From contig JAUIKF010000032.1 in NCBI GenBank assembly GCA_030430575.1, positions 1 through 64,000 on the forward strand: DNA of 64,000 nucleotides, in the 5' to 3' direction. The position numbers were made by a program, and so were the translations under genes. The DNA is from Bacteroidia bacterium. GTDB lineage: Bacteria; Bacteroidota; Bacteroidia; J057. This document shows positions 23,464 to 56,001 of the stretch, piece by piece (the first letter of the stretch is position 1; each line of letters begins with the position of its first letter). Under the pieces are notes generated by a model. The model worked only from the letters and a program-made list of their open reading frames with translations, did not search any database and was not told the origin of the DNA.

Positions 23464-24492
23464 TTAGACTAATTGATTCATCAATTCTTGCTTTCTGGCT
23501 TCCGTCATGCCATAAATAGGGGCATCCCAGCCGCGATTATTATAGTAGATAATGGTTTGCTGAATGCTTTCTTGAAAGTCTATGGGCGTGAACCCAAAGT
23601 CTGCTTTCAATCGCTCATTGCTATAGGTGAAGTAATCATTGTCGATCCATAAGGGCATGTCTGTCCATTGGGTTACGTGCTGGGCGTGAAGGAAAGCTGG
23701 AGGGGCATTTATGCTATTGGGAGATCGGTGAAGAAGTTCGCTGGCGGTTGTTACGAGCTGCCTGATGGAGGTCTGAGGGCTTGAGGTCATGGTGTAAATG
23801 GATTGATGATGTTCGATAGAAATGGCATCAATAATGGCTTTCACCAAATCCGCTACATAGGTCACCGAAAATGTTTTTTTGCCTTCATCAGGCAATAAGA
23901 TAGGGTCGTTTTTTTTCGCCTGATACAACCAGTAATACAGTCGATCGGTAGGGTCATAAGGTCCATAGACAAGGGCTGGGCGGAAAATGACAAAGTCCAA
24001 TCCACTCTGTTGTAGGATGCGTTCGCATTCGGCCTTGCGCTGGCCGTAGGTGCTGGGGGAAGGATCGTTACGCTGGTCAGGCGTGCAGGGAAGGATGGGC
24101 GCAGTCTCGTCTCGTAAGACGCTTTTTTCAGCCTCACTGTCGTAGACAGAGCAGGTGGATACAAAAATATAGCGCTTACATCTCCCATCGAGCGCTGCTA
24201 AGACCTTTTCCAGCGAGTCGGGATAGTAGCAGGACAGGTCTATCACGTAGTCCCAACGCCCCTCGGCGACTTTCGTCAACGGATCCGTATTGCGATCACC
24301 GTAGAGTTTCGAGAGTGCTGGGAACAAATGCGCATTGGTGACGCCTCGATTATAGAGGGTGATGTCAAATTGATTGAGGGTAATCAATTGGTTGATCAGG
24401 TTGCGCCCGATGAAGTTGGTGCCGCCGAGGATGAGGAGTTTGATGAGGGTGAATTTGATTTTGAACTTTTCCTTATTGGTTGACCTGGTCAA
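23464..24492 (-). CDS. NAD-dependent epimerase/dehydratase (extended SDR)
   Basis: An extended short-chain dehydrogenase with the Rossmann motif LILGGTNFIGRNL at its N-terminus and the catalytic YGQRK (Y-x3-K), related to nucleoside-sugar epimerases and mRNA-binding-like SDRs. No ATG, GTG or other canonical start lies close to the Rossmann strand. A TTG at 24492, overlapping the preceding gene by 20 nt, is the most reasonable start (342 residues); an ATG at 24582 would add 30 residues read from the other gene in a second frame. Overlap indicates translational coupling with the anti-sigma-like gene. The substrate is unknown. Confidence 0.8.
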   Translation of the reverse strand: MTRSTNKEKFKIKFTLIKLLILGGTNFIGRNLINQLITLNQFDITLYNRGVTNAHLFPALSKLYGDRNTDPLTKVAEGRWDYVIDLSCYYPDSLEKVLAALDGRCKRYIFVSTCSVYDSEAEKSVLRDETAPILPCTPDQRNDPSPSTYGQRKAECERILQQSGLDFVIFRPALVYGPYDPTDRLYYWLYQAKKNDPILLPDEGKKTFSVTYVADLVKAIIDAISIEHHQSIYTMTSSPQTSIRQLVTTASELLHRSPNSINAPPAFLHAQHVTQWTDMPLWIDNDYFTYSNERLKADFGFTPIDFQESIQQTIIYYNNRGWDAPIYGMTEARKQELMNQLV

Positions 24493-25228
24493 GCAAGTCT
24501 TGCGCTTTTTGTTTCCACTTTCCCGAATTGGGGTATGCGGCGATGATTTCCAATTCCTGCTTAGCTTTCTCGACTTCCCCATTCAGGCCATACAGCATGG
24601 CGAGGTTCCACTTTGCCTCTACGCCGTAGCTACTGCTAAATGGGACACGAGAAAGGGATAAAATTCCCTCCCCAACATTGACACGTCCCTCTTGTGTTTC
24701 ACAAGCAGCGAGCATCACCAAGGCACGGTTTGCCACTTCGCTCTCAGGCGAGGCGTTGGTTAGAATATCCACATATATTTTCTGGGCATTGGCATAATCT
24801 TTTGCTTCAAATCTTTCCGCTCCTGCTTCAAAAACAGCCGCCAGGCTGTCTGCGACCTCGTTGGGGCCACGCCTCAACGTCTCTGATGGGGTTGCATAGG
24901 CAAATAGGACTGGGGCTGGTTTCAGCCATTGATTGAGGCCGATGACCACCAACACCAATACCACCGCTGCCACAGCGAGCGTCCAATAACGGCGAAAGGG
25001 AACCACCTTTTCCTCCGACCCTTCTTCAGCATCCCACTCGCGAAATTTGGCTGATAACCGTTCCTGTGCGGTTTCCCACAAAGCACCTCTGAGCAGCAGA
25101 TGTTTGTTTAAAGCTGCTTGAAGCGCAGGATTTTCCGTGACTTCTTTTTCAAAAGAAGCCCGTTCCTCGTCGGAAAGCTGCCCGTCCAAGTAGGTTTCAA
25201 TCAATATATCTTCTGGCTCACTGTGCAT
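24473..25228 (-). CDS. Anti-sigma-like membrane protein with TPR domain
   Basis: A 251-residue protein. The N-terminal 75 residues are a soluble helical segment (LIETYLDGQLSDEERASFEKE), typical of anti-sigma factors without a zinc motif. One transmembrane helix (about 84-102) is followed by a periplasmic TPR-like region (FEAKDYANAQKIYVDIL, KWNLAMLYGLNGEVEKAKQEL). It lies 12 bp downstream of an ECF-type sigma factor gene, so it probably binds that factor at the membrane. The assignment is by context and layout. Confidence 0.75.
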   Translation of the reverse strand: MHSEPEDILIETYLDGQLSDEERASFEKEVTENPALQAALNKHLLLRGALWETAQERLSAKFREWDAEEGSEEKVVPFRRYWTLAVAAVVLVLVVIGLNQWLKPAPVLFAYATPSETLRRGPNEVADSLAAVFEAGAERFEAKDYANAQKIYVDILTNASPESEVANRALVMLAACETQEGRVNVGEGILSLSRVPFSSSYGVEAKWNLAMLYGLNGEVEKAKQELEIIAAYPNSGKWKQKAQDLLDQVNQ

Positions 25229-25240
25229 CTAATCGCCCTA

Positions 25241-25819
25241 TTACATTAAATCTTTTAATTTTTTTCGACACGTATATCGCCGAGAATTGACCACACTAGG
25301 CCCCGAATATCCCAGCAGTTCTGCAATTTCAATATCGCTATACCCTTCCCATTTCATGACCAAAATCTCTTTACATTTCTCCCCAATTTTCTCCAATAAC
25401 TTTTTCACATGGTCCAATTTGTCCCTTGTGATGAAATCCTTGAGGAAATGTTGGGAGGTCTGTGGTAGTCCTGGCGCAATGGCTTCTATCGGCACGGTAT
25501 CTAGGTTAGTCCGCTTTTTATCTAATATATCAATGCACCGGCGTAAGAAAATGGTCATTAGCATAGTCGACAGCAAAGAATCTCTTCTGAAACGATCGTC
25601 TAAGATCTCCTTCATCAATTGCCCCAAGGCCAGATCGTAGGCAAACCGCGCATCTTCTTCACTTAGGCCATACTTCTTTCGGCCTTTGTGGATATAGCCC
25701 TTGTGACTCTTGAACAAGGTTTTTATGGCTCTGTTCTGCTGGGCCATATTCCCTCGTATCCCTTGGATGATGTCATCATCTTCGTAGGGATTTCTTCGGA
25801 AGTTGAAAAATTGAGCCAT
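25241..25819 (-). CDS. ECF-type RNA polymerase sigma factor
   Basis: A 192-residue sigma-70 family protein of the extracytoplasmic-function kind. A region-2-like part (LFKSHKGYIHKGRKKYGLSEEDA... RRCIDILDKKR) is followed by a C-terminal region 4 helix-turn-helix (YSDIEIAELLGYSGPSVVNS). It is the first gene of the sigma / anti-sigma-like pair. The stretch upstream has a weak TACCTTAC box 21 nt before the ATG, which could be its promoter. Confidence 0.85.
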   Translation of the reverse strand: MAQFFNFRRNPYEDDDIIQGIRGNMAQQNRAIKTLFKSHKGYIHKGRKKYGLSEEDARFAYDLALGQLMKEILDDRFRRDSLLSTMLMTIFLRRCIDILDKKRTNLDTVPIEAIAPGLPQTSQHFLKDFITRDKLDHVKKLLEKIGEKCKEILVMKWEGYSDIEIAELLGYSGPSVVNSRRYTCRKKLKDLM

Positions 25820-25973
25820 GGAGTAAGGGAGCAGTTTTAGGTAAGGTAAAAAAAAAGAAGATTTTTTTCAGAAATGAGTTGAGGTTTTTTCAAAGCAGGA
25901 GATTAACGAAAGTAAATCCTTTCTGATGAGAGAGGACGCTTTCATTTTTTTAAAGCTAAAAAACCTTGTCATT

Positions 25974-26456
25974 ATGAAAACTTCATCATTCTCTATCGTC
26001 CTCCTGATAGCTGCTGTCATGCTCCTGAGCAGCTTTACCCTTGGCCACAAACGCCCCAAAATCAAAGGGTACCGTATTTCTCAAATTGTGTTGGTTGATT
26101 TCCAAGGAGGGATCACTTATCGAGGAAAGAAAGAGCGGATCAACCTCCCCGATATTTATGTCGAATTGACGCGCAATTATGGTTCGACGGTGCGGACTGA
26201 GACTGTCAGAGACTGCATGCCGAGTAGCCGTACTTCCTTTTTTCGACGGGGATTGCCTTATAAGGTAAATGACCTCCGCACGCCTGTGAGCCTCACCTTC
26301 CGCAACAAAGATGCGAATGGGGCCGCTATCGGTCACGAAGTCTTTTTCAGTGGCGTGGAGCTGTTGAAACAGTGCTCCGCGCAAAAGAAAAGTAGGTCCA
26401 CCATTGTCTATAATGCAGGCAGCGTTCATTACGAATTGACAGTAGAATGGCTCTAG
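25974..26456 (+). CDS. Hypothetical secreted protein
   Basis: A 160-residue protein with a signal peptide (IVLLIAAVMLLSSFTLG); the start at 25974 places it properly, whereas an earlier in-frame ATG at 25926 would add 16 residues before it. The mature part is basic and strand-rich, with two Cys (VRDCMPS, LLKQCSAQ) that could form a disulfide. No family was recognised. It stands alone, divergent from the sigma factor gene. Confidence 0.65.
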   Translation: MKTSSFSIVLLIAAVMLLSSFTLGHKRPKIKGYRISQIVLVDFQGGITYRGKKERINLPDIYVELTRNYGSTVRTETVRDCMPSSRTSFFRRGLPYKVNDLRTPVSLTFRNKDANGAAIGHEVFFSGVELLKQCSAQKKSRSTIVYNAGSVHYELTVEWL

Positions 26457-26580: not shown

Positions 26581-28626
26581 ATGAAACGAATTTGGATCCT
26601 ATTCCTTACCCTAACCTTATGCCTGCCCTCCCTTCAAAGTCAGCAAGCTGACTTTGGTGATGCACCCGAAACGGGCAGTTTCCTGGGAAAAACCTTCCAG
26701 TTTAACACCACAGCGAGCAACCAAGGCCCTAGACATACAGCCGCCGCTTCATCGACCTTTTGGCTAGGACGCCCCGATGAACCGATCCCTATGCCTCCTT
26801 CTGTCGAAGCAGATGCGCTCCTCCCAGATGCCGATGCCGACGATGGTCGCCCGTTCATCTTTGTCCTGGCGCTGGGCGTGCCTGCGCCTGCCAGTGTATT
26901 TGTCCCAATCACCACCAGTGCCTCTCACAATCCGGCCACGCCCATCTATATCAATGTGGCCATCGACGTAGACCATGACTTGGATTTTGATGACGCAAGA
27001 GATGTCAACTGGGTGGTCCGCAATATGATCGTGTATATGGATGCAGATACTTCCCTCTGGAATATCTCCGACTATTTTGGGTTTGGTAGCGACCTGCTGC
27101 TGTTTCCTGTCTGGGCACGGATCTCCGTGACGGACCAGCCTGTCAAATATGGCTGGGCCACAGGAGACGTGGCCAATGTCTATACCGTGGGAGAAACAGA
27201 GGATTGGTGTTATGGACCATCCCCTGTTCCCATCCTGTCATGCGCTCCGCCTAGCGACTCACAGCCTCAGAAGCCCAATGTGAGAGATATATTTTTTGAC
27301 GGGCGCATCTTCCATATTCCTTGTGGTAAAAAACGCCCCATCATGTTTCCTGTGACCAATCGCTCCAAAGTGCCTGTCAAAGACCTTCAATTTGACTTTA
27401 CTTTCCTGGGAGGCGATCGATTACCCATTCCCCCGACAGTGATTCCCCGGCCTGTCAACCTCGCGCCAGGGGAAACGAAAATCCTGACCTTCTGTGTGCA
27501 GGGATGGCCATGTCCAGGCCCTGATGATCCCCATCACCGAAAAGCAGTCTATTATGTGCGATGGACCTATGATCCCAAGGAGGAGTATTATCAGTTTTCT
27601 GAAAAAGTGACTTTCAGCGATGCAGAAGACCCAGACTATGTCGATGGCAACTTCAAGGGGTATCTACCCATAGAGCCAACAGGTGTTTCTCCACATATTC
27701 CTTGGCGGCCTACTGTAGGGCCTGCTTTTGTGGGGGAATTGATGACGTGGACAGGATACTATCCAGGGCCTGTACGCTGGATCGAAGGCGATCCCACGGC
27801 CAGTGTCATTCGGATGCCAAGCTGGATGCAAATGACTCAAGTCCCGAGCAGTACGGGAGACACCACCCTGCTTCGATTTACGGGCACCCCGGGACCTACA
27901 GATGCGGGGATAGATTCGCTTATCCTGGCTGTCTATGCAGACAGCAGTGCTGATGTCATCACGATGGACACATTGCGCTATGCCGTGCCATTGTATGTGA
28001 CCTATCAAGGCAATCCGCCCACCTTTACCGATACCTTGGCGCCCTGGAAACAGATTCAGGTTTTCAACACCCTTAGTCATACCTATCGGGCCTATGATAT
28101 GGACCTTGCTATACCAGGCATCGATACGCTCTTATTTGCCTACCAACTACAGGATGTTCAAGGGCGAGCCTATAGCCCGATTAATCCCCCGAAATTTGAG
28201 GTTTATGGCAATGATTCTGTTCGATTTGAGTGGAAGCCTGACAGCAGTGAGACGGGGCAATACCAGTTAAGGGTATTTGTGGGAGATTATTATCAATTTC
28301 TGGATACGAGCACCACCCAAATAGCGGTGACACACTTTGGCGTTGGTCTATCAGAACCGCTTGCGGATGAGCTGTATTTCAGGCTATTTCCCAACCCCTT
28401 TGAAGATAAAGTGACAGTCGAAATTTCCCTTCCCCATCCCACAGATGTGGTGATCTCGATTGTGGATATGCAGGGAAGAAAGGTAAATGAAATGCAGCAA
28501 CGTCGTCAAGCCTTAGGCCTCCATCGATATGTCCTGAAACTCGATGAGTTGCCAGATGGAGTCTACTTGGTGGAGGTAATTGCCGATGGTCATTCCTATT
28601 ATCAGAAGGGGATTAAACTGCCATAA
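26581..28626 (+). CDS. Secreted GEVED-type protein with T9SS sorting domain
   Basis: A 681-residue exported protein. A signal peptide (ILFLTLTLCLPSLQS) is followed by QADFGDAPETG and GPRHTA, then ADALLPDADADDGRPF and VGETEDWCYG, the hallmarks of GEVED-type surface modules with an Asp-rich probable Ca-binding loop. The middle part (about 230-590) is built of beta-sandwich-like segments, and the last 80 residues form a type A T9SS sorting domain (LFPNPFEDKVTVEI ... GVYLVEV). It is expected at the cell surface. The neighbouring CHAT gene follows 138 bp downstream in the same direction. Confidence 0.83.
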   Translation: MKRIWILFLTLTLCLPSLQSQQADFGDAPETGSFLGKTFQFNTTASNQGPRHTAAASSTFWLGRPDEPIPMPPSVEADALLPDADADDGRPFIFVLALGVPAPASVFVPITTSASHNPATPIYINVAIDVDHDLDFDDARDVNWVVRNMIVYMDADTSLWNISDYFGFGSDLLLFPVWARISVTDQPVKYGWATGDVANVYTVGETEDWCYGPSPVPILSCAPPSDSQPQKPNVRDIFFDGRIFHIPCGKKRPIMFPVTNRSKVPVKDLQFDFTFLGGDRLPIPPTVIPRPVNLAPGETKILTFCVQGWPCPGPDDPHHRKAVYYVRWTYDPKEEYYQFSEKVTFSDAEDPDYVDGNFKGYLPIEPTGVSPHIPWRPTVGPAFVGELMTWTGYYPGPVRWIEGDPTASVIRMPSWMQMTQVPSSTGDTTLLRFTGTPGPTDAGIDSLILAVYADSSADVITMDTLRYAVPLYVTYQGNPPTFTDTLAPWKQIQVFNTLSHTYRAYDMDLAIPGIDTLLFAYQLQDVQGRAYSPINPPKFEVYGNDSVRFEWKPDSSETGQYQLRVFVGDYYQFLDTSTTQIAVTHFGVGLSEPLADELYFRLFPNPFEDKVTVEISLPHPTDVVISIVDMQGRKVNEMQQRRQALGLHRYVLKLDELPDGVYLVEVIADGHSYYQKGIKLP

Positions 28627-28764: not shown

Positions 28765-31700
28765 ATGAAAAATATTGTAAAGAACTTCGTTCTCTGGTGG
28801 TGTGGGGTCATGTGTTTACCCTTGCAAGTAGCTTTTTGCCAGAATAATCCCCTCTCCCTCGCCGACACCACGCTCGCGATCAACTGGTTCGATGAAGGGC
28901 TTTGCTATGCCAAAGCTTATGAATTTAAGCAGGCAGTATATGCTTATGAAGAAGCCGCCCAGCTTTACCAAGCGCTTGCGCCTCAAGTGAATGATTCCGT
29001 ATGGTGGGACCAAACCGTACATGCTTGGAATGCTTGGGGAGACATGTTGTTTGTGGTCTTATACACAAGTCCTGGTATGAGTCAGGAGAAGTATACCACC
29101 CAAAAAGCCAAAGCAACTTGGGCGATTCGTCAAGCACAGGCGATGGCGAAGTTGCATTTGGGAGATCACCATGAGTTACTGGCAGAGGGGTATGCTATTT
29201 TGGGAAAAATGGATGCTGCGAGAACCATGAAAGAAAACCTCGCTTTCCTTGACTCTGCCATGGTGATCCATGAATTGAACGGTCACCCCATGCATAAAGA
29301 ACTTGCTCAAATATGTAGCTATTATGGAATGACCCTCCGCGATAGCGGTCATTTTCAGATGGCAATCCCCTATTTTGAGCGAGCGCTTGATGTCGCCAAG
29401 CATACTTCAGGCGAAAACAGCCTTGAAGTAGCTCATATATACAACTCATCAGGGATCAATTATGACCTGCTTGGTTGGCATGAAAAAGCGATTGAAACGA
29501 TAGCAAAAAGCTTAGACATAAAGCGGTTGTATGGGCAGGAAAATAATCCTAGATTCATCAATGGGCTAAATAATCTGGGAGGGATGCTGATCAATCAAGG
29601 GGATTATGCACAAGGGGAAGCCTACTTAAATGAAGCTGCTGGGTTAGTAGAAACACATGATTTATCCGCTCGATTTCCCTACCTCCTGAACCTTATCTAT
29701 CAGAATCTTGGAAACAGTGTGCTTTTTCAAGGAAAATGGCTGGAAGCATTAAAGAGATTTCGTCAGCATGTTGCCTACGTTTCGAGGCATTATGAGCGCC
29801 CGGAGCAAGAAGAACCCTACCTCCTGAGCATTGCCCAAATAGGAGAAATGCATACGATGTTGGGCGCTATGGATTCTGCCCGAAAATACCTCCACTGGTC
29901 CAAAGAGCTGATGGATAATCTCTCTTCTTTAAGTAAGCGAAATCGTTCAGTGATGCTAGGCACTATAGGCATCTGCTACGTTGAATTTCAGGAGTTTGGG
30001 GAAGGTTTGGACTATTTGAATCAGGCACTGGCCTTGGGGCAAGAGATATATGCACATGATCACCTAGAGATGTTGCGCATACAGCTAGCTAAGGTTGATG
30101 CCTTGTACCAAATGGGTGCATATGATGAGGGGCTAGCCACCTTGGATCAATTGATTCGAGATATACCAGCAGGTGGTTCCGTCACAGATTCATCGATTTG
30201 GGCAAATCCAGTATTGGTGAAAGCCTGGCGGCTCAAAGGGGAAATCTATTTAGGAAAAGCGAAATCGAGCCGTTCCATCTCCGAAGGCCAGCGCGCGATG
30301 GCAGCGTTTGAGAATGCCCTTGCCCTGCACGATACCTTGTTTCGCATATTTACCTATGAAGCTTCTCAAAGAACCCTTCTCAAGGAGGCTGAGCGTCTGT
30401 ATAAAGGAGGAATAGCGTGTGCTTTTTTATTAGATGAATTGACAAAAAACACTACCTATCAAGAGCTCGCTTTCTCCCTAGCTGAAAGAAGCAAGGCTGC
30501 TATCTTAAAACAAGCCGTGGGAAAAGCGCACGCGCTTTCCTATTCGGGAATCCCTGATGCGGTATTGGTACAGGAAAAACGGCTCAAACGCTTGGTATTT
30601 CAGTATCAGCAGGAAGTCTTAGCAGAAAAGGCCAATGGCCCTTCCAGTGACCTAATGCGTCTTCACGCTTTACGACAGCGAGGCTTTGCCTATCATCAAC
30701 AGCTGGATTCCTTGCAGCATGCCCTCCAGCAAGACTACCCCCAGTTCTACCAATTGCAATATGTTGATCTCTCAACAGACAGGCATTCCATTCAATCCCA
30801 ACTTGACGACCATACGGGCCTGCTCCAGTATTTCTGGGGAGAGGGTATGCTCTATAGGTTTTGGATGAGGAAAAATGACTTTCAATGTGAGCTAATTCCC
30901 ATTTCACAGCGCTTTACAGATTCGCTCCATACATTTATCGCATGGCTAAAGGCATATAACGAGGTACATGATAGCAAAAGCGCCGCGCACATGATGGACA
31001 TGTCTCATCAAATATACCGCCGATTGATTGGCCCATCCCTGCCAAAAGACATATCAAAGCTTGTCATCATTCCTGACGGCCCATTGTATCAATTGCCCTT
31101 CGAAGCCTTGCTCATTTTGCCACCATCATTTAACAATGGACACCTCAACTGGGAATCACTCACTTATCTACAGGCCAATGTTGCCTTACGGTATAGCTAC
31201 TCAGCTGCTTTGATGGAAGCTCCCCCTTCACTTGAAGTAGGCACAAAAGGCATAGGTGCCTTTGCGCCTAGTTATCCAAAAGAGCTAGCGGAGGTTACTG
31301 TAGGTGACGAATTCTATCCCGTTAGGGAAGGGCTCTCTTCCCTGAACTACAATGTGGAAGAAGTCACTTCCATCATGAAATTCGCCACAGGGGATACTTT
31401 TGTAGGAAAGGCAGCGACAGAAGCAGCTTTTAAAGCACAAGCAGGCCGCTTCCGCCTGCTTCACCTTGCCATGCATGCGGATATGAATGATAGCCTTCCA
31501 GAGCTATCTGGAATGGCCTTTTATCCAGAATTTACTGATAGCCTAAATAATGGATACCTGACAACGGGTGAGGTCTATGGGCTATCACTCCCAGCCCAAT
31601 TGGCGATCCTCAGCGCCTGCAATACTGGCAATGGACAGTACCAGCCAGGAGAAGGCGTGATCAGCATCGCACGGGCGTTTCGCTATGCAGGTGTTCCCAA

Positions 31701-32025
31701 TTTGGTGTATAGCCTATGGCAAGTAGATGACGAAGCAACGGCCCTGTTTATGGCATCCTTTTATGAATTTCTCGCTAAGGGCCTCCCCAAAGACCAAGCC
31801 CTACAAAAAGCCAAACAGACGCTGATGCAAGATGGCTATGCTCATCCCTATTACTGGGCGCCTTTCTTATTGCTTGGCGACGATCAGCCGGTAGAGCTTG
31901 GTGCTTCATTTTGGGGTGGTCAGATGAATATTTGGGGGGTGATTTTGGCCATAGGGCTGTTGTTGGGGATAGTCTATATGCTAATTGCTCGACGTCGATG
32001 GTTTCGCTGGCAAACTCCGAAATAG
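28765..32025 (+). CDS. Periplasmic TPR-CHAT domain protein (caspase-like protease fold)
   Basis: A 1086-residue protein. A signal peptide (about residues 1-26) is followed by a long TPR array (about 35-560: ALAPQVNDSVWWDQ, HKELAQICSYYG, NNLGGMLINQG), a coiled-coil linker, and a CHAT domain (about 745-1040). The catalytic dyad is visible as His904 in LHLAMHA and Cys952 in LSACNTG, with FRYAGVPNLVYSLWQVDD after it. A single transmembrane helix near residues 1055-1073 followed by RRRWFRW anchors the C-terminus, which places the TPR and CHAT parts in the periplasm. CHAT proteins are caspase-like proteases in death or defence systems. The 3' end overlaps the convergent TPR gene by 45 bp. Confidence 0.88.
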   Translation: MKNIVKNFVLWWCGVMCLPLQVAFCQNNPLSLADTTLAINWFDEGLCYAKAYEFKQAVYAYEEAAQLYQALAPQVNDSVWWDQTVHAWNAWGDMLFVVLYTSPGMSQEKYTTQKAKATWAIRQAQAMAKLHLGDHHELLAEGYAILGKMDAARTMKENLAFLDSAMVIHELNGHPMHKELAQICSYYGMTLRDSGHFQMAIPYFERALDVAKHTSGENSLEVAHIYNSSGINYDLLGWHEKAIETIAKSLDIKRLYGQENNPRFINGLNNLGGMLINQGDYAQGEAYLNEAAGLVETHDLSARFPYLLNLIYQNLGNSVLFQGKWLEALKRFRQHVAYVSRHYERPEQEEPYLLSIAQIGEMHTMLGAMDSARKYLHWSKELMDNLSSLSKRNRSVMLGTIGICYVEFQEFGEGLDYLNQALALGQEIYAHDHLEMLRIQLAKVDALYQMGAYDEGLATLDQLIRDIPAGGSVTDSSIWANPVLVKAWRLKGEIYLGKAKSSRSISEGQRAMAAFENALALHDTLFRIFTYEASQRTLLKEAERLYKGGIACAFLLDELTKNTTYQELAFSLAERSKAAILKQAVGKAHALSYSGIPDAVLVQEKRLKRLVFQYQQEVLAEKANGPSSDLMRLHALRQRGFAYHQQLDSLQHALQQDYPQFYQLQYVDLSTDRHSIQSQLDDHTGLLQYFWGEGMLYRFWMRKNDFQCELIPISQRFTDSLHTFIAWLKAYNEVHDSKSAAHMMDMSHQIYRRLIGPSLPKDISKLVIIPDGPLYQLPFEALLILPPSFNNGHLNWESLTYLQANVALRYSYSAALMEAPPSLEVGTKGIGAFAPSYPKELAEVTVGDEFYPVREGLSSLNYNVEEVTSIMKFATGDTFVGKAATEAAFKAQAGRFRLLHLAMHADMNDSLPELSGMAFYPEFTDSLNNGYLTTGEVYGLSLPAQLAILSACNTGNGQYQPGEGVISIARAFRYAGVPNLVYSLWQVDDEATALFMASFYEFLAKGLPKDQALQKAKQTLMQDGYAHPYYWAPFLLLGDDQPVELGASFWGGQMNIWGVILAIGLLLGIVYMLIARRRWFRWQTPK

Positions 32026-33237
32026 CGTCATTTTTGCAAGCAAAACATGCCCTTCAACGCTTTCAGTCTGTTTGCGATGATTGGTCACATACTTTGCCTG
32101 AACACCCGGAAATCCCTGTAACCCAGCTTCTTGTAGGTCCTTTGGGATTTTGATGAAATCTAGTGCCAAATTGGATTCCCATTCTAGCTGATAATTGTGG
32201 TTCTTGATATTGTAAGTGCCCTTGAGGGTTAAGCCCATTTCGAGCGGGCCTATATTGAGACCAGAGGACTCTAGAGAGAAGGCCAGTTTCTCCCCTGATT
32301 TTTTGTAAATGCTAAAATTTCCCCAAGGAGTTCTGATCCCAAACCCTTCATAAAAGCCTGGAATGATAATCCCAAAACTGGGAGCTTCGATCTCACAATC
32401 ATAATAGCGTGGATAGGGTCTCCCTTTCATGCAATCCAGTTGAGCACTGGACTGTTCTATTTCACAGCTTACCACTCTCATCCTTCCTATAAGCCCGCCT
32501 GGGCAGACTTCCATGCAATGAAAATTGATGTCATCACAGGGGGCTCGTTGTAGGTTGAAATAATCATGCGTAGCAGGTATATGGGGGAAAGTAGTCACAA
32601 ACGTCATATCAGACGGATCCATTTGCCTGGCTAACTCCAGGGCTTCTGCGGCTTCTTGGTCCTTCCCTTGCTCAAGCAACATCTGTCCCAGTTGGCTATG
32701 GTGCCCGGCTTGATTGGGGGCCAAAGTCACAGCCTGACGGATCATGTCTATTCCCCTGTTTATTTGCCCCTCATCCTCCTGTTGAATGCCTTCCTCATAC
32801 GTCATGACGCCATGATTGTGATAGGTTTCTGCTATTTCTGGTGCCAATTTTTTGGCCGCTTCAAAGGCTAGGTTAGCCATCTGGCTAAGGTGGGCATCAG
32901 GTTCCTGCTGGTGCCATTCCCAGAGCATGGCGCCTAGGTTTTGATAGGCAACAGCGTCATTCGGTTGTTGAGCAGCATACTTGGCTGTAAGCCAAAGTGC
33001 CCATCCCAGTTCATCATTGATGGTAGCCCAGGAGGCATAAAATGCGGCCATTTGGCCAGAGGGATCTTGATTGATCAGCTTCTCCCACTGTGCCCTTTCT
33101 GGCAACTCAAACTGCTTTTCAATGTTGGCAGTCACTGCTGGGAGAGAAAATGTGGCAGGTGCTTGTCCTAGACAAGCCGGAAGCAAAAAGCTCCCCAAAG
33201 ACAATAGGAGTCCTATATATAGATTCTTGGTTTTCAT
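31981..33237 (-). CDS. TPR-containing exported protein with Cys-rich middle
   Basis: A 418-residue exported protein. The signal region ends LLPACLGQ, which may be a lipobox (LPAC) or an ordinary cleavage site. Residues 80-210 are TPR-like (AYQNLGAMLWEWHQQ, TYHNHGVMTYEEGIQ, HHSQLGQMLLEQGKD). They are followed by a segment with six Cys (APCDDINFHCMEVCPGG, VSCEIE, DCMKGRPYPRYYDCEIE) and a beta-rich C-terminus. It is the second gene of an operon with the caspase-like gene (32 bp apart) and converges on the CHAT gene, overlapping it by 45 bp. An ATG 6 nt upstream is an equal start. The C-terminal family was not recognised. Confidence 0.7.
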   Translation of the reverse strand: MKTKNLYIGLLLSLGSFLLPACLGQAPATFSLPAVTANIEKQFELPERAQWEKLINQDPSGQMAAFYASWATINDELGWALWLTAKYAAQQPNDAVAYQNLGAMLWEWHQQEPDAHLSQMANLAFEAAKKLAPEIAETYHNHGVMTYEEGIQQEDEGQINRGIDMIRQAVTLAPNQAGHHSQLGQMLLEQGKDQEAAEALELARQMDPSDMTFVTTFPHIPATHDYFNLQRAPCDDINFHCMEVCPGGLIGRMRVVSCEIEQSSAQLDCMKGRPYPRYYDCEIEAPSFGIIIPGFYEGFGIRTPWGNFSIYKKSGEKLAFSLESSGLNIGPLEMGLTLKGTYNIKNHNYQLEWESNLALDFIKIPKDLQEAGLQGFPGVQAKYVTNHRKQTESVEGHVLLAKMTLFRSLPAKPSTSSN

Positions 33238-33269
33238 AATCATGTTTCTTTTTTAGTTCTCAATTTGCC

Positions 33270-34808
33270 TTAATATCCTCTGCGGTTGGCAGTCACTTGG
33301 TGGATGCCCTGGTCTTCATAGGAACTATTTCCAATGAAGGGGAGATTTCGTTTGAGCAACATAGCAAGTTGGTCGAGAGAAGGAGTCGCTTTGATCGTCA
33401 TAACCCAATTATCTCTTAATCTATCTGCTTCAAAAAAAGTGGCTGTCAATTTGGGCTCAGCAGCCCCCATAGCCAAGGTCATATCATGAGCTGGTCTAAA
33501 AGCTGTCTGGTTGGCCAGGTTTCTGGTACAGGTAGCAAAGCCGGTATTATTGAGTTCATCTACGCCCATAGGCGTGAGCCCGCTATAGCACGAATAATCT
33601 GCCACTATGTGGTTACATACTTTCTGATCGATTGCCTTGTACATAATGCGATGGAACTTTTCCCTAGGATAACCAGCATCATAAAATGAAGAGGCGAAGG
33701 CGCCACAGGGGAAGCCGTTTTTGGTATCTCTCTCTGACCCATGTGACCATATAATTTCAATGGAGGTCTCTCGCCCTTGGCTCACGCGTTTGGCATAGGA
33801 TGCTATCCCATTTACCAGTTTGGTGGCTTCTGCTTTGTTATGGGCGGCTATTTCCTTTTCCAATGCTTCATTTCCAGAGAAGCAGGATTTAATACTTCCG
33901 AAGAAACCGACGTCCACCTCTCTTGTGATAGAGCGAAAGTGGGGAGCAAGGTAGGTGGCAGAAACGCCAGCATTTTCTAAGGCTACTTTTATTCTATGGG
34001 CTGAAGGTTCAAAAGTGCTTACCCGCATATCCACAATGAGTGCTTCGGTCCCTTTGCCACGGTTGGGGCAGTCTGCTACCGTATCTGGGGGCAGTTCTTC
34101 AAAAGTGGGGGGTTCAGCCCATTCACTCATGTCATGGATATTTTCGATGATGCGCACGCGATAGATAAAACTGCCCTTTCCAGGTACATCCAGATGAATC
34201 CGAAACGTATCGGTAGGGTCAGCCTCATTTGACAAGAAAATGTCCCATCCGCGATTTCCTTCCACAGGGCGGATCTCGTCCACAGGCCCCTCAGCCCATA
34301 GTTCTATGAAGGAAAAGGGTAATGTGTCTGTCAACAGGCGCAAAGAGGCACTGTCTCCTGGCAACACATAAGTGGGGCCTGCGAGGAAGGCGTGGTTATA
34401 ATCACAGCCTAGCTCTAAATGGGTAGAAAGGCTAGGGCGAGTCACCGCCCCAAAACCCAGAATTTCATCCATCAAGTCCAGGTCTTCTTGAGAGATGTCT
34501 CCGTCTTGGTTGAGGTCAGCAGCAGCGGGGCATGCGCCTGGAACTGGGATGACACCCCCTGAATTTGTTGTCCACTCATACAGATATTCTCGGTCTGTTT
34601 CGTCGACCTTCAGGTCCCAATTGAGGTCTCCATAGACCAGTAGTGGGGCTAATCCTAATTCTAGGTTTTGTAGATTTTCATAATAAACCTCCTCTTCGAG
34701 GGGATCAGGGTTAAAAATGACAGGGTCATCATCCTTGCAGCTCGCAAAACATGCGAGCAGGACAAACAGGCTAATAAGCGGTAAAATACGTTCAATTCGA
34801 ATCGCCAT
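33270..34808 (-). CDS. Caspase-like surface lipoprotein with dockerin repeats
   Basis: A 512-residue predicted lipoprotein. The hydrophobic signal ends LLACFASC; Cys24 is followed by KDDD, which resembles the Bacteroidota lipoprotein export signal for surface exposure. Residues 60-115 hold two dockerin/EF-hand-type loops (DLNWDLKVDETD and DLNQDGDISQED). The C-terminal half has the order of a caspase/clan CD fold: EALIVDMRVS strand, IEIIWSHGSE with His356, and VADYSCYSGL with Cys407. The His-Cys spacing of 51 residues fits that fold. It is first in the operon with the TPR gene. Protease activity is inferred from the dyad only. Confidence 0.65.
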   Translation of the reverse strand: MAIRIERILPLISLFVLLACFASCKDDDPVIFNPDPLEEEVYYENLQNLELGLAPLLVYGDLNWDLKVDETDREYLYEWTTNSGGVIPVPGACPAAADLNQDGDISQEDLDLMDEILGFGAVTRPSLSTHLELGCDYNHAFLAGPTYVLPGDSASLRLLTDTLPFSFIELWAEGPVDEIRPVEGNRGWDIFLSNEADPTDTFRIHLDVPGKGSFIYRVRIIENIHDMSEWAEPPTFEELPPDTVADCPNRGKGTEALIVDMRVSTFEPSAHRIKVALENAGVSATYLAPHFRSITREVDVGFFGSIKSCFSGNEALEKEIAAHNKAEATKLVNGIASYAKRVSQGRETSIEIIWSHGSERDTKNGFPCGAFASSFYDAGYPREKFHRIMYKAIDQKVCNHIVADYSCYSGLTPMGVDELNNTGFATCTRNLANQTAFRPAHDMTLAMGAAEPKLTATFFEADRLRDNWVMTIKATPSLDQLAMLLKRNLPFIGNSSYEDQGIHQVTANRRGY

Positions 34809-34896: not shown

Positions 34897-36312
34897 CTAG
34901 CAATTACAATTAGGGTCACACCCACAATCTCCACAACAGTCTCCGCAGTCCCCACAACCACCACCACCCCCACAACTACCACCTCCGCCGCCACCAGAAG
35001 ATATGGCTATTAACGTTGCGAGGGTAAGGACGCCAACCACGCCGATCAGTGCCCATGCCCACCACTTGAGGCCACCGTCTTTCTTGCGGGCCTTGCGCTC
35101 GGCGCGCTGAAGGCGCCGCTTCATCCGCCTTTGCTGGCGGTCCAGCTTTCTGAGCAGACGCTCACGGTTTTTGGAAATACCCTTGGCGAGGAGGTACATG
35201 CCGATCGGCGCACCGATGAGTGCCCCTATCATGGCATAGTCAAGCGTAAAGCCACTACCCGCGCCATATTCTGCGGCAGCAAATAGTTGCTGGTGAAATA
35301 TCACGAACAGTAGGGCGATATAGCTAGCGGCAAATCGGGCAGGCCTGAGCGGGTCGGTCCATGCCCCGATATGTTGTTGAATGCGGCCTACGGTTCGAGC
35401 GATGGTCGGCACGGTGGCCTTTTCGATGCCGCTTTGTGGCGTGCAGACATGGGGTGATTCTCCTAAGGTAGCAGCCAGATTGAGCATGAGTCGAGAGATC
35501 AAAGAAGCTTTGATATCTGCCGCTACAGGTGCTTGCTGAATCATGCCTTCGATAGCTTTCGCTTTCTCCCATAGCCAGTCGCTGGCGGCTTGTTTTTGGG
35601 TTTCTAGGGGAATGGATGGATGGATTAGCAATGGGTTAAATGCCGCTTCCAGCTCGTCTTTTTCTATATCTTTCCAAGCGTCTAAACCATAGATCAATTC
35701 CCCGAAGGCATAGCCCAACTCGTAGACCGTGTCCCGCCAGGCGGGCCTTTCGATAGCTTCTACGCCTTTGGCGAAGAGGTAGCCTGTGATCGCGGCAGAT
35801 GGCTCAGCATGCCAATCCAGTAAGGCTTGAGGATTGTCTGTGGTAGGCGCAAGGGTCTCGCGGTGAGCGTCTGCGGCTTGGTGCTCTAGGAGCACCTGGG
35901 GGTCTATATTCCAGACCGCCATGCGGTCTTGGACGCGGGCCAGCGGCTTTTTGAGAAATCGCTGCGCCATTTTCCATACGAATTGTACGTCGTCCTGCGC
36001 ATTGTCCCGCACCTTTAATTCCACCAAAATTAGGTTCATATCAGCCGCGTATTGCAGACTGAGGGGCAAGGCATCTGCCGCTGGCATGGAAAAGCAATTG
36101 TGCGCATATAATTTCTCGTCCCATTGCTCCGTATCCGCTTCCTGAATCACACTGAGAATTTCTGCCAAAAATACGCTGTCAAAATTGAGTAGCATGCGAC
36201 TTCGCTGGCCGTAGAGTCTGCCGATAGATTTGCATGTTCCACAATAATGGAGGCGGTACCAGTCTGGCTGTCCTGCCTTCAGGCAACCTGTATTTTTCAT
36301 CAATCCAAACAT
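34897..36312 (-). CDS. DUF5685 family membrane protein with Gly/Cys-rich tail
   Basis: A 471-residue protein. The N-terminal MFGLMKNTG and RLHYCGTCKSIGRLYG carry the paired Cys typical of DUF5685 proteins, followed by an all-helical body (about 40-300). Two hydrophobic segments follow (about 315-365), then a basic coiled stretch (RKLDRQQRRMKRRLQRAE), a third membrane helix (WAWALIGVVGVLTLATLI), and a C-terminal tail of Gly runs and CGDCGDCCGDCGCDPNCNC. The tail carries ten Cys in about 30 residues, consistent with metal binding or a precursor-like segment. The function is not established for this family. Confidence 0.75.
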   Translation of the reverse strand: MFGLMKNTGCLKAGQPDWYRLHYCGTCKSIGRLYGQRSRMLLNFDSVFLAEILSVIQEADTEQWDEKLYAHNCFSMPAADALPLSLQYAADMNLILVELKVRDNAQDDVQFVWKMAQRFLKKPLARVQDRMAVWNIDPQVLLEHQAADAHRETLAPTTDNPQALLDWHAEPSAAITGYLFAKGVEAIERPAWRDTVYELGYAFGELIYGLDAWKDIEKDELEAAFNPLLIHPSIPLETQKQAASDWLWEKAKAIEGMIQQAPVAADIKASLISRLMLNLAATLGESPHVCTPQSGIEKATVPTIARTVGRIQQHIGAWTDPLRPARFAASYIALLFVIFHQQLFAAAEYGAGSGFTLDYAMIGALIGAPIGMYLLAKGISKNRERLLRKLDRQQRRMKRRLQRAERKARKKDGGLKWWAWALIGVVGVLTLATLIAISSGGGGGGSCGGGGGCGDCGDCCGDCGCDPNCNC

Positions 36313-53370: not shown

Positions 53371-56001
53371 ATGAAACACTCTACCATTTACACAACTACA
53401 AGAGTGCTTGCCTTTCTGGCACTCATCCTAACAATCGGAATGGGTTCACTTACAGCCCAAATCATTTCAGAAGACTTTCAAGGAGGTTCTATTCCTACGA
53501 ACTGGACCGTACTTGACGTAGATGCCAGTACGGTACAATCAGGTTACCAAACCATCTGGCCACCAGCAGGCGGAAGTCCATGGACAGTCCTTGGCGAAAC
53601 TGCCACCAACGATGCCGCTGCCAGTACTTCTTGGTTTGCTACCGCAGGGGCTGCTGATGACTGGTTGATCACCCCACAATTTGCCGTTACGGCCAATACC
53701 GTGTTGGAATGGCGCGCCATGGCACAGCAAGCTGCTCCGTTCAACGACGGCTATGAAGTGAGAATCTCTACAGGTACCCCAACGGTTGCCAATTTCACTG
53801 CCAATGCTGCATTGTTCTCAACTGCTGGAGAGACTTCAGGGAGTTGGGTGACACGTACAGTCAACCTGGCTTCTTATGCCAACAGCAATGTCTACATTGC
53901 CTTCCGCAATAACTCCAATGACAAGAACATCCTCTGGATTGACGATGTAGAGGTATTTAATGCGGTAGCTTTTGACGCTTCTATCGGTTCGCCTGCAAAT
54001 ATGGGGGGAGAATACAATTTCATCCCAGAAGGTCAAACACGTCCATTTACCCTGGAAGCTGAGATTACCAACCGCGGTAGCAGCACGATTGACAGTGTGA
54101 CGATGAAAGTCAATGTATATGACTTTCCTACTTTCGCTGCTGGTGGTGCCCCACTTTACACCGCAACCAGTATGCCTGTTGCTACTATCACTGCAGGTAA
54201 TGCAGCAACCCTGAATGTTCCTGGTTACACCGCAACAGATACAGGCTTCTTTGTGGCAGAATACATTGCTGGTATCAAGTCCACTCAAATGGATGGGTCT
54301 CCAGCTAATGACACTGTCTATGAATCATTTACGATCACTGATTCTACTTTTGTAAGAGACAATAATGTCTTTATCAATGGAGTAGGAATCGGTCCTGGTG
54401 TCTCTTACGGCCTCTTAGGGAATATGTACGACCTCGTCAATCCTGATGCCTTGACGTCTATGTCATTCTTCTTGCCAAGTCCTTCTCCTGGCCAGACGGT
54501 ACAGGGAACTGTGCTGGCATTTGATGCGATGGGTGTGCCAGATACCACCAAACTCGGTGTCACTGTCCCATATATCCTTCAGCCTGGTGATACAAACAAC
54601 GTATTCCTTACCCTTGAAATGCAAGGTGGGCCTCTACCGTTGAATGCTGCTCAGTATGTATTTGCGATTATTGAGCGTGATAGCCTTGTCTCTATTGGCC
54701 GTTCGCCAGAAATCTATACCCCTGGTACTTCTTGGATTTATTGGGATGCTAATGGATGGGCTACGATGAACTCCTTTGGTCCTAACTTTGAAGGAACCCT
54801 CATCATCCGTCCAAACTTCGGCCCTGCATGTGCGCCATTTGGCCTTTCTGCTACGACAAATTCTGCTAATTGTGGTGCAAGCGATGGCTCTGCAACGGTT
54901 TCTGCCGCAACGGCTGGCAATTATTCTTACAGCTGGTCTAATGGAGCAACTACTGCTACTGCAACGGGCTTGGCTGCAGGATCTTATACAGTGACTGTCA
55001 CTGATATGACTTCTATGTGTACAGACATGATCACTGTAGTGATTGGCAATGTCAATGCACCTACGATCACTAGTACACCTGTCACGAATGTATCTTGCCC
55101 AGGTGGCATGAATGGTACAGCTGGAGCTGTTGCTTCTGGTGGTACAGGAACACTATCCTATATGTGGAGTACAGGAGGTACTACAGCGAATATCACTGGC
55201 CTAGCAGCAGGTACCTATACAGTGACTGTTACTGACATGAATAACTGTCAAACTTCTTCTACCGTGACTGTCACACAGCCTGACTCTGTCAATGCAAACC
55301 CAACGGTGACCGATGTGCTTTGTAATGGTGACATGAATGGTAGCATTGCATTAAATCCAAGTGGTGGTACACCTGGCTATAACTATGCTTGGAGCACAGG
55401 CGGTATGGGAAGCGCCATCCTCAACGTAGGAGCTGGCTCTTACTCTGTCACTATTGCTGATGGCAATAACTGTGTATCTATGTTCAACATTGATGTAAAT
55501 GAGCCAGCAGTTCTCACGGGTGCAGTTTCTATGACTCCCGATGATGGTACAGGTAGTGGTACAGCTACAGTCCTTCCCGCAGGTGGTACTGCGCCTTATA
55601 ACGTCCTTTGGAGCACAGGTTCTACTTCTAATTTCTTGACAGGACTCTCTGGCGGTACCTATACCGTGACTGTCACAGATGCGAATAACTGTACGGTCAC
55701 TGAGATGATTACCGTAACTACTACCAGCATCGAAGATGAGCTTGCTATTGGCCTCAATACTTTTGAATTATTCCCTAACCCATCTCAGGGACAATTCACC
55801 ATGAAGCTCGAAATGGCTGAAAGAACTGATCTTACAGTTCAGCTATTTGACCAGAAAGGTCGTGCGATTCTTCAGCAAGGCTACCGTGCGGTAGAAGTGA
55901 TGAATCGCGAATTTGATATTCGTCACCTGCCAGCTGGCGTTTACTTGCTACAAGTAAGCACTGAAAAAGGCGCTGCTAGCAAGCGGATTATCCTTGAATA
56001 A
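53371..56001 (+). CDS. Secreted choice-of-anchor J / SprB-repeat protein with T9SS domain
   Basis: An 876-residue exported protein. A signal peptide is followed by a choice-of-anchor/cleaved-adhesin-like domain (about residues 30-190: ISEDFQGGSIPTNWTVLDVD, ADDWLITPQFAV, VYIAFRNNSNDKNILWIDDV). A second beta-rich region follows (about 200-490), then four SprB-type repeats of about 75 residues (each with the form YSWSNG, AGSYTVTVTD, C at the end of each unit) and a type A T9SS sorting domain (LFPNPSQGQFTMKLEM ... ASKRIILE). It is probably surface-exposed and adhesive; a motility role as in SprB is possible. It stands alone and is followed by a terminator. Confidence 0.88.
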   Translation: MKHSTIYTTTRVLAFLALILTIGMGSLTAQIISEDFQGGSIPTNWTVLDVDASTVQSGYQTIWPPAGGSPWTVLGETATNDAAASTSWFATAGAADDWLITPQFAVTANTVLEWRAMAQQAAPFNDGYEVRISTGTPTVANFTANAALFSTAGETSGSWVTRTVNLASYANSNVYIAFRNNSNDKNILWIDDVEVFNAVAFDASIGSPANMGGEYNFIPEGQTRPFTLEAEITNRGSSTIDSVTMKVNVYDFPTFAAGGAPLYTATSMPVATITAGNAATLNVPGYTATDTGFFVAEYIAGIKSTQMDGSPANDTVYESFTITDSTFVRDNNVFINGVGIGPGVSYGLLGNMYDLVNPDALTSMSFFLPSPSPGQTVQGTVLAFDAMGVPDTTKLGVTVPYILQPGDTNNVFLTLEMQGGPLPLNAAQYVFAIIERDSLVSIGRSPEIYTPGTSWIYWDANGWATMNSFGPNFEGTLIIRPNFGPACAPFGLSATTNSANCGASDGSATVSAATAGNYSYSWSNGATTATATGLAAGSYTVTVTDMTSMCTDMITVVIGNVNAPTITSTPVTNVSCPGGMNGTAGAVASGGTGTLSYMWSTGGTTANITGLAAGTYTVTVTDMNNCQTSSTVTVTQPDSVNANPTVTDVLCNGDMNGSIALNPSGGTPGYNYAWSTGGMGSAILNVGAGSYSVTIADGNNCVSMFNIDVNEPAVLTGAVSMTPDDGTGSGTATVLPAGGTAPYNVLWSTGSTSNFLTGLSGGTYTVTVTDANNCTVTEMITVTTTSIEDELAIGLNTFELFPNPSQGQFTMKLEMAERTDLTVQLFDQKGRAILQQGYRAVEVMNREFDIRHLPAGVYLLQVSTEKGAASKRIILE

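Follow-up and report, generated by a model that had tools for sequence, protein, structure and literature searches.

Work on CHAT proteases has dealt mainly with their cytoplasmic roles in CRISPR signalling and in cell death. In Craspase, the type III-E CRISPR system, the TPR-CHAT protein Csx29 cleaves Csx30, the inhibitor of a sigma factor, CASP-sigma (PMC10028731). Craspase was the only relevant system returned by a literature search of partial coverage for CHAT together with sigma/anti-sigma factors, T9SS, Saprospiria and Bacteroidetes; a catalogue of ECF sigma factors may already note this context. HetF and other TPR-CHAT proteins (PF12770) share the same architecture of TPR repeats plus a CHAT domain, and we know of no description of HetF that includes an exported topology with a C-terminal anchor or a linkage to a sigma/anti-sigma pair.

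The stretch of DNA analysed here (the window, 64,000 nucleotides of a Bacteroidia genome) carries a TPR-CHAT gene together with genes for an ECF sigma factor and for the putative inhibitor of this factor, an arrangement analogous to that of Craspase. Unlike in Craspase, the CHAT protein is predicted to be exported and membrane-anchored, and the anti-sigma factor to sit in the membrane with its TPR domain in the periplasm. No Cas protein was seen among those genes of the window that were scanned with Pfam, nor any association with Cas7-11 or type III-E. As in DegS/RseA and RsiW, there is a single-pass anti-sigma factor with a periplasmic domain that a membrane-anchored protease of the periplasm could cut, yet here the protease has a CHAT cysteine-protease fold, not a DegS-type serine one, and is encoded in the same module. 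In comparison with HetF, the CHAT protein of the module presents a conserved exported topology, a C-terminal anchor and linkage to a sigma/anti-sigma pair. The T9SS offers a further parallel, given the exported partner of the CHAT protein carries a T9SS type-A sorting domain and the sortase PorU also belongs to clan CD; unlike PorU, however, the CHAT protein is not a C25 peptidase and has a C-terminal inner-membrane anchor.

The sigma and anti-sigma genes of the window form one operon on the reverse strand. The ECF-type sigma factor (25241..25819; family A1) matches TIGR02937 (sigma70-ECF) with E=4e-11 and a score of 42.8, which is at, not above, the cut-off of 42.9. A 12-bp gap separates it from the co-operonic anti-sigma gene (24473..25228), whose product is predicted to comprise a cytoplasmic N-terminal domain, one transmembrane helix (approximately residues 85-102) and a periplasmic TPR-like domain. 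The transmembrane helix is conserved in the alignment of the anti-sigma family (A2), being present in 62 of 63 members; TPR matches were obtained for most of 30 members, and zf-HC2 matches for two.

The intergenic region 25820..25925 lies between the sigma gene and the divergent CHAT operon on the forward strand. The first gene of this operon encodes a small exported protein with an N-terminal hydrophobic segment (25926..26456), the second a secreted protein of 681 residues with a T9SS type-A C-terminal sorting domain (26581..28626), and the final one the TPR-CHAT protein (28765..32025), a predicted periplasmic, inner-membrane-anchored protease. The sorting domain of the second protein is matched by PF18962 (E=2e-10) and TIGR04183, its Por_Secre_tail score is 41.3 bits against a cut-off of 27, and its N-terminus is signal-peptide-like, as is required of T9SS cargo. 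Elsewhere in the window, 53371-56001 encodes SprB repeats, a cleaved-adhesin domain and a T9SS sorting domain, i.e., a gliding/adhesion-type surface protein.

The CHAT protein has 1086 residues, with TPR repeats and the Pfam CHAT domain PF12770 at residues 747-1039 (E=6.9e-54; 183.7 bits against a curated cut-off of 24). His904, in LLHLAMHAD, and Cys952, in AILSACNTG, are both visible, and thus the CHAT domain and dyad named in the original prediction are borne out. Also supported is its claim of a signal peptide and a C-terminal anchor, which would leave the CHAT domain facing the periplasm: the N-terminus is signal-peptide-like, a hydrophobic helix spans residues 1056-1074, the basic tail after it ends in RRRWFRWQTPK, and the same topology is predicted across the family. 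The catalytic His and Cys are present in 71 of 71 full-length homologues and, according to a simple hydropathy rule, 69 of the 71 have a C-terminal transmembrane segment and 58 of the 71 an N-terminal hydrophobic segment. Given these counts, the exported, inner-membrane-anchored topology is predicted to be a property of the whole CHAT family. When the CHAT alignment was used as a profile against PDB, the matches listed were all TPR proteins, none of them Csx29.

CHAT domains were found in 13 of 13 genomes of the window's family, with 4 to 39 copies each. The source genome presents 39 matches, approximately 30 of which are full-length; this is an extreme expansion of TPR-CHAT genes, and the nearest paralogue of the window copy is only ~29% identical to it. 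At L051:6240-13817, two TPR-CHAT genes lie in tandem, with a gene for a small exported protein ahead of each (196 and 169 residues; the two are related), which suggests a duplication unit of partner and CHAT gene.

The CHAT gene does have recurring partners, which the original prediction missed: these lie upstream of it, and are the ECF sigma/anti-sigma pair and the T9SS-sorted protein. Linkage between sigma and CHAT genes is found approximately 20 times in the source genome, where a CHAT domain lies no more than 10 kb from 19 of the 25 sigma genes of this subgroup, in comparison with 2.2 expected (p ~1e-15). The other ECF genes listed for this genome are not enriched near CHAT domains (3/17, against 1.5 expected). 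According to the operon maps, the sigma/anti-sigma pair is most often directly divergent from the CHAT operon, and sometimes the order is sigma, anti-sigma, CHAT; 10 of 29 CHAT genes of the source genome have no sigma gene in the stretch read. Same-family sigma/anti-sigma pairs with no CHAT gene nearby were also observed (L121-L126), at least one of which adjoins a 2133-residue secreted protein with a T9SS-like tail.

When the anti-sigma profile was searched over 395 Bacteroidota genomes, 46 presented strong matches, and the gene context was read at 20 anti-sigma loci, each in a different genome and none in the family of the window. A CHAT gene lies alongside the pair in 13 of these 20 loci (seven have none), and the distant CHAT proteins found there also have a C-terminal hydrophobic helix. 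These 20 genomes together have 44 CHAT domains, 35 of them within 10 kb of a member of the same anti-sigma family, against 0.54 expected. CHAT domains occur in 19/20 genomes with the anti-sigma factor versus 3/20 comparison genomes without it (p=4e-7); this comparison and the linkage counts above were obtained with sigma and anti-sigma profiles seeded from CHAT-linked members, and on genomes that share ancestry. Several of the genomes counted carry a single CHAT domain. The module, in terms of its composition, predicted topology, conserved dyad and genomic linkage, is widespread in the bacterial class.

The CHAT gene is thus one part of a recurring module of four, and we tentatively propose, by analogy, that within it the periplasmic CHAT protein would cleave the anti-sigma factor and free the sigma factor. 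The parts are the ECF sigma factor, the single-pass anti-sigma factor with periplasmic TPR repeats, at least one exported protein (often T9SS-sorted), and the anchored periplasmic TPR-CHAT protease. Because transmembrane segments are found in 69/71 CHAT proteins and 62/63 anti-sigma factors, both are predicted to present their TPR repeats to the periplasm. Cleavage of the anti-sigma factor is suggested because Csx29, also a TPR-CHAT protein, cleaves Csx30. The trigger would be a signal at the envelope or surface, which the exported partner might relay; the CHAT protease would then dock by its TPR repeats and cut the periplasmic part of the anti-sigma factor. Regulated proteolysis would next free the sigma factor, which would activate the divergent operon along with further surface genes. 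The activity of the CHAT domain, the anti-sigma factor as its substrate, the identity of the signal and the targets of the sigma factor are what we infer from these comparisons. As to the targets, GGTAAC-type words occur in 13 of 44 sigma-divergent regions versus 4 of 97 others, being the leading enriched hexamer, weak after multiple testing, which weakly suggests sigma autoregulation; the exact word is absent from the window's own divergent region, 25820..25925.

The exported partner itself bears on what the CHAT protease acts upon. In 23 of 55 cases, the same-strand gene just upstream of CHAT encodes a T9SS C-terminal domain, as against approximately 7% of other local ORFs, and a Pfam analysis of 50 upstream partners found 23 T9SS sorting domains, six subtilases and seven DUF7619 proteins. 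PKD/DUF7619/DUF7849 proteins and subtilases are also seen as partners in other families. At some loci (e.g., L108:11502-13838 and L147:8995-10377), a subtilase (Peptidase_S8) gene immediately precedes CHAT within one operon, so that two proteases are paired. The CHAT protease might process or quality-control its exported partner, be it T9SS-sorted, a subtilase or PKD/DUF7619, with the sigma/anti-sigma pair merely regulating the operon. The frequency of T9SS domains (23/55) and S8 subtilases (6/50) immediately upstream is in its favour, and so is the fact that both proteins are exported and share the periplasm; besides, the T9SS removes sorting domains with PorU, an enzyme of clan-CD fold. However, the partners are diverse and sometimes absent, with nothing between sigma, anti-sigma and CHAT genes, and across families the sigma/anti-sigma pair is the more constant partner of CHAT. 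We regard partner processing as somewhat less likely than anti-sigma cleavage, to which it is the main rival. The mirror-tree comparison does not decide between the two: CHAT and anti-sigma trees show no correlation within the source genome (r=0.06, p=0.38) and a weak one across the family (r=0.22, p=0.05), and sigma and anti-sigma trees present a good correlation.

CHAT domains are also known effectors in bacterial conflict systems (PMC10907252), and the CHAT family is expanded and divergent, as the ~29% identity of the nearest paralogue indicates. This would agree with a role in envelope conflict or cell death, in which a sigma-regulated CHAT protease attacks the cell's own envelope proteins upon phage or competitor attack. 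Such a role is nevertheless unlikely, given a PADLOC search of the CHAT protein returned no defence family except a generic TPR match, and both the periplasmic topology and the anti-sigma linkage are unlike the described cytoplasmic systems.

The original prediction had instead grouped the CHAT gene with its two downstream neighbours, a caspase-like lipoprotein and a Cys-rich TPR protein, in a proteolytic relay of the envelope. All three ORFs are present at the coordinates that it gave. Both neighbours are encoded on the reverse strand: an exported TPR protein with a Cys cluster (31981..33243), a lineage-specific neighbour, and an orphan (33270..34808), putatively a surface lipoprotein, which bears dockerin-like loops as well as clan-CD-like motifs. 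The first has a weak TPR_17 match (E=1.2e-5) and seven Cys residues, and a search of the family genomes gave repeat-level matches only.

The lipoprotein has 512 residues, with Cys24 after a hydrophobic segment and then KDDD, which we take to fit the export signal of Bacteroidota surface lipoproteins. It had been described as having His356 and Cys407 in clan-CD-like order plus dockerin-type loops. The former stands, given His356 is in IIWSHGSE and Cys407 in VADYSCYSG, with both the His-Gly and the Cys motif following hydrophobic strands; the loops (residues 59-114) are only borderline, with E=3.8e-4 and 21.0 bits, below the PF00404 gathering score of 22.9. No match to a caspase-like domain was found in Pfam, NCBIfam, PADLOC or PDB, and AlphaFold2 run on the single sequence yielded a pLDDT of 36 both for the full length and for the C-terminal 264 residues. 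A His-Gly...Cys-x-Ser-Gly pattern was found in three of 901 local ORFs, namely the lipoprotein, a Peptidase_C14 protein (E=1.4e-15) and a CHAT protein (E=7.5e-58), and in six of 20,000 shuffles; these counts are supportive only, since the pattern was written post hoc with the lipoprotein sequence already seen. Judging from its sequence, membership of clan CD is plausible. The gene for the Peptidase_C14 caspase-domain protein (L045:653-2767) has a CHAT gene of the same genome a few genes away.

No credible relative of the lipoprotein was found in the same-genus genome, 12 family genomes, approximately 395 genomes of the phylum and approximately 295 of the class, nor in a genome-contig collection (two scans), viral contigs or plasmids. 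Weak class-level matches (E from 0.008 to 0.09) were dismissed as short and, in many cases, in broken frames. Next to the lipoprotein gene, 34897-36312 encodes a DUF5685 protein with a Cys/Gly-rich C-terminus and 64% identity to its counterpart in the same-genus genome; the neighbours of that counterpart show no synteny with the window, and the site is therefore uninformative on the trio.

A relay has in its favour that the three genes are physically adjacent, that all three proteins appear exported, and that the lipoprotein carries clan-CD motifs, a motif-level support. These points are outweighed by the remaining evidence. The CHAT and TPR genes are convergent, with 3' ends overlapping by 45 bp, and the lipoprotein and TPR genes, which both converge on the CHAT gene, are not co-transcribed with it. 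The two proteins lack convincing homologues in the genomes searched, and neither is found alongside CHAT at approximately 70 other CHAT loci. The trio was not found together in any other genome searched, which is an outcome that the original prediction itself named as refuting the system idea, and the three-gene system is thus unsupported. A relay is very improbable, and the lipoprotein and the Cys/TPR protein most likely lie next to the CHAT module by chance.

With more reserve than for the cleavage itself, it is possible that the module represents an envelope signalling system of Bacteroidota that is found throughout the class and has been duplicated repeatedly. The CHAT protein would then be a dedicated site-1 protease for the co-encoded TPR anti-sigma factor, and surface proteins, often T9SS-sorted, would be coupled to the output of the ECF sigma factor. 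If true, Bacteroidota would gain a caspase-like route for signalling from envelope to gene, and the module would be an extracytoplasmic counterpart of Craspase signalling, which would suggest that TPR-CHAT proteins serve the logic of protease, sigma factor and inhibitor more generally. For the uncharacterised genes concerned, tens of them per genome, it would also supply a hypothetical substrate.
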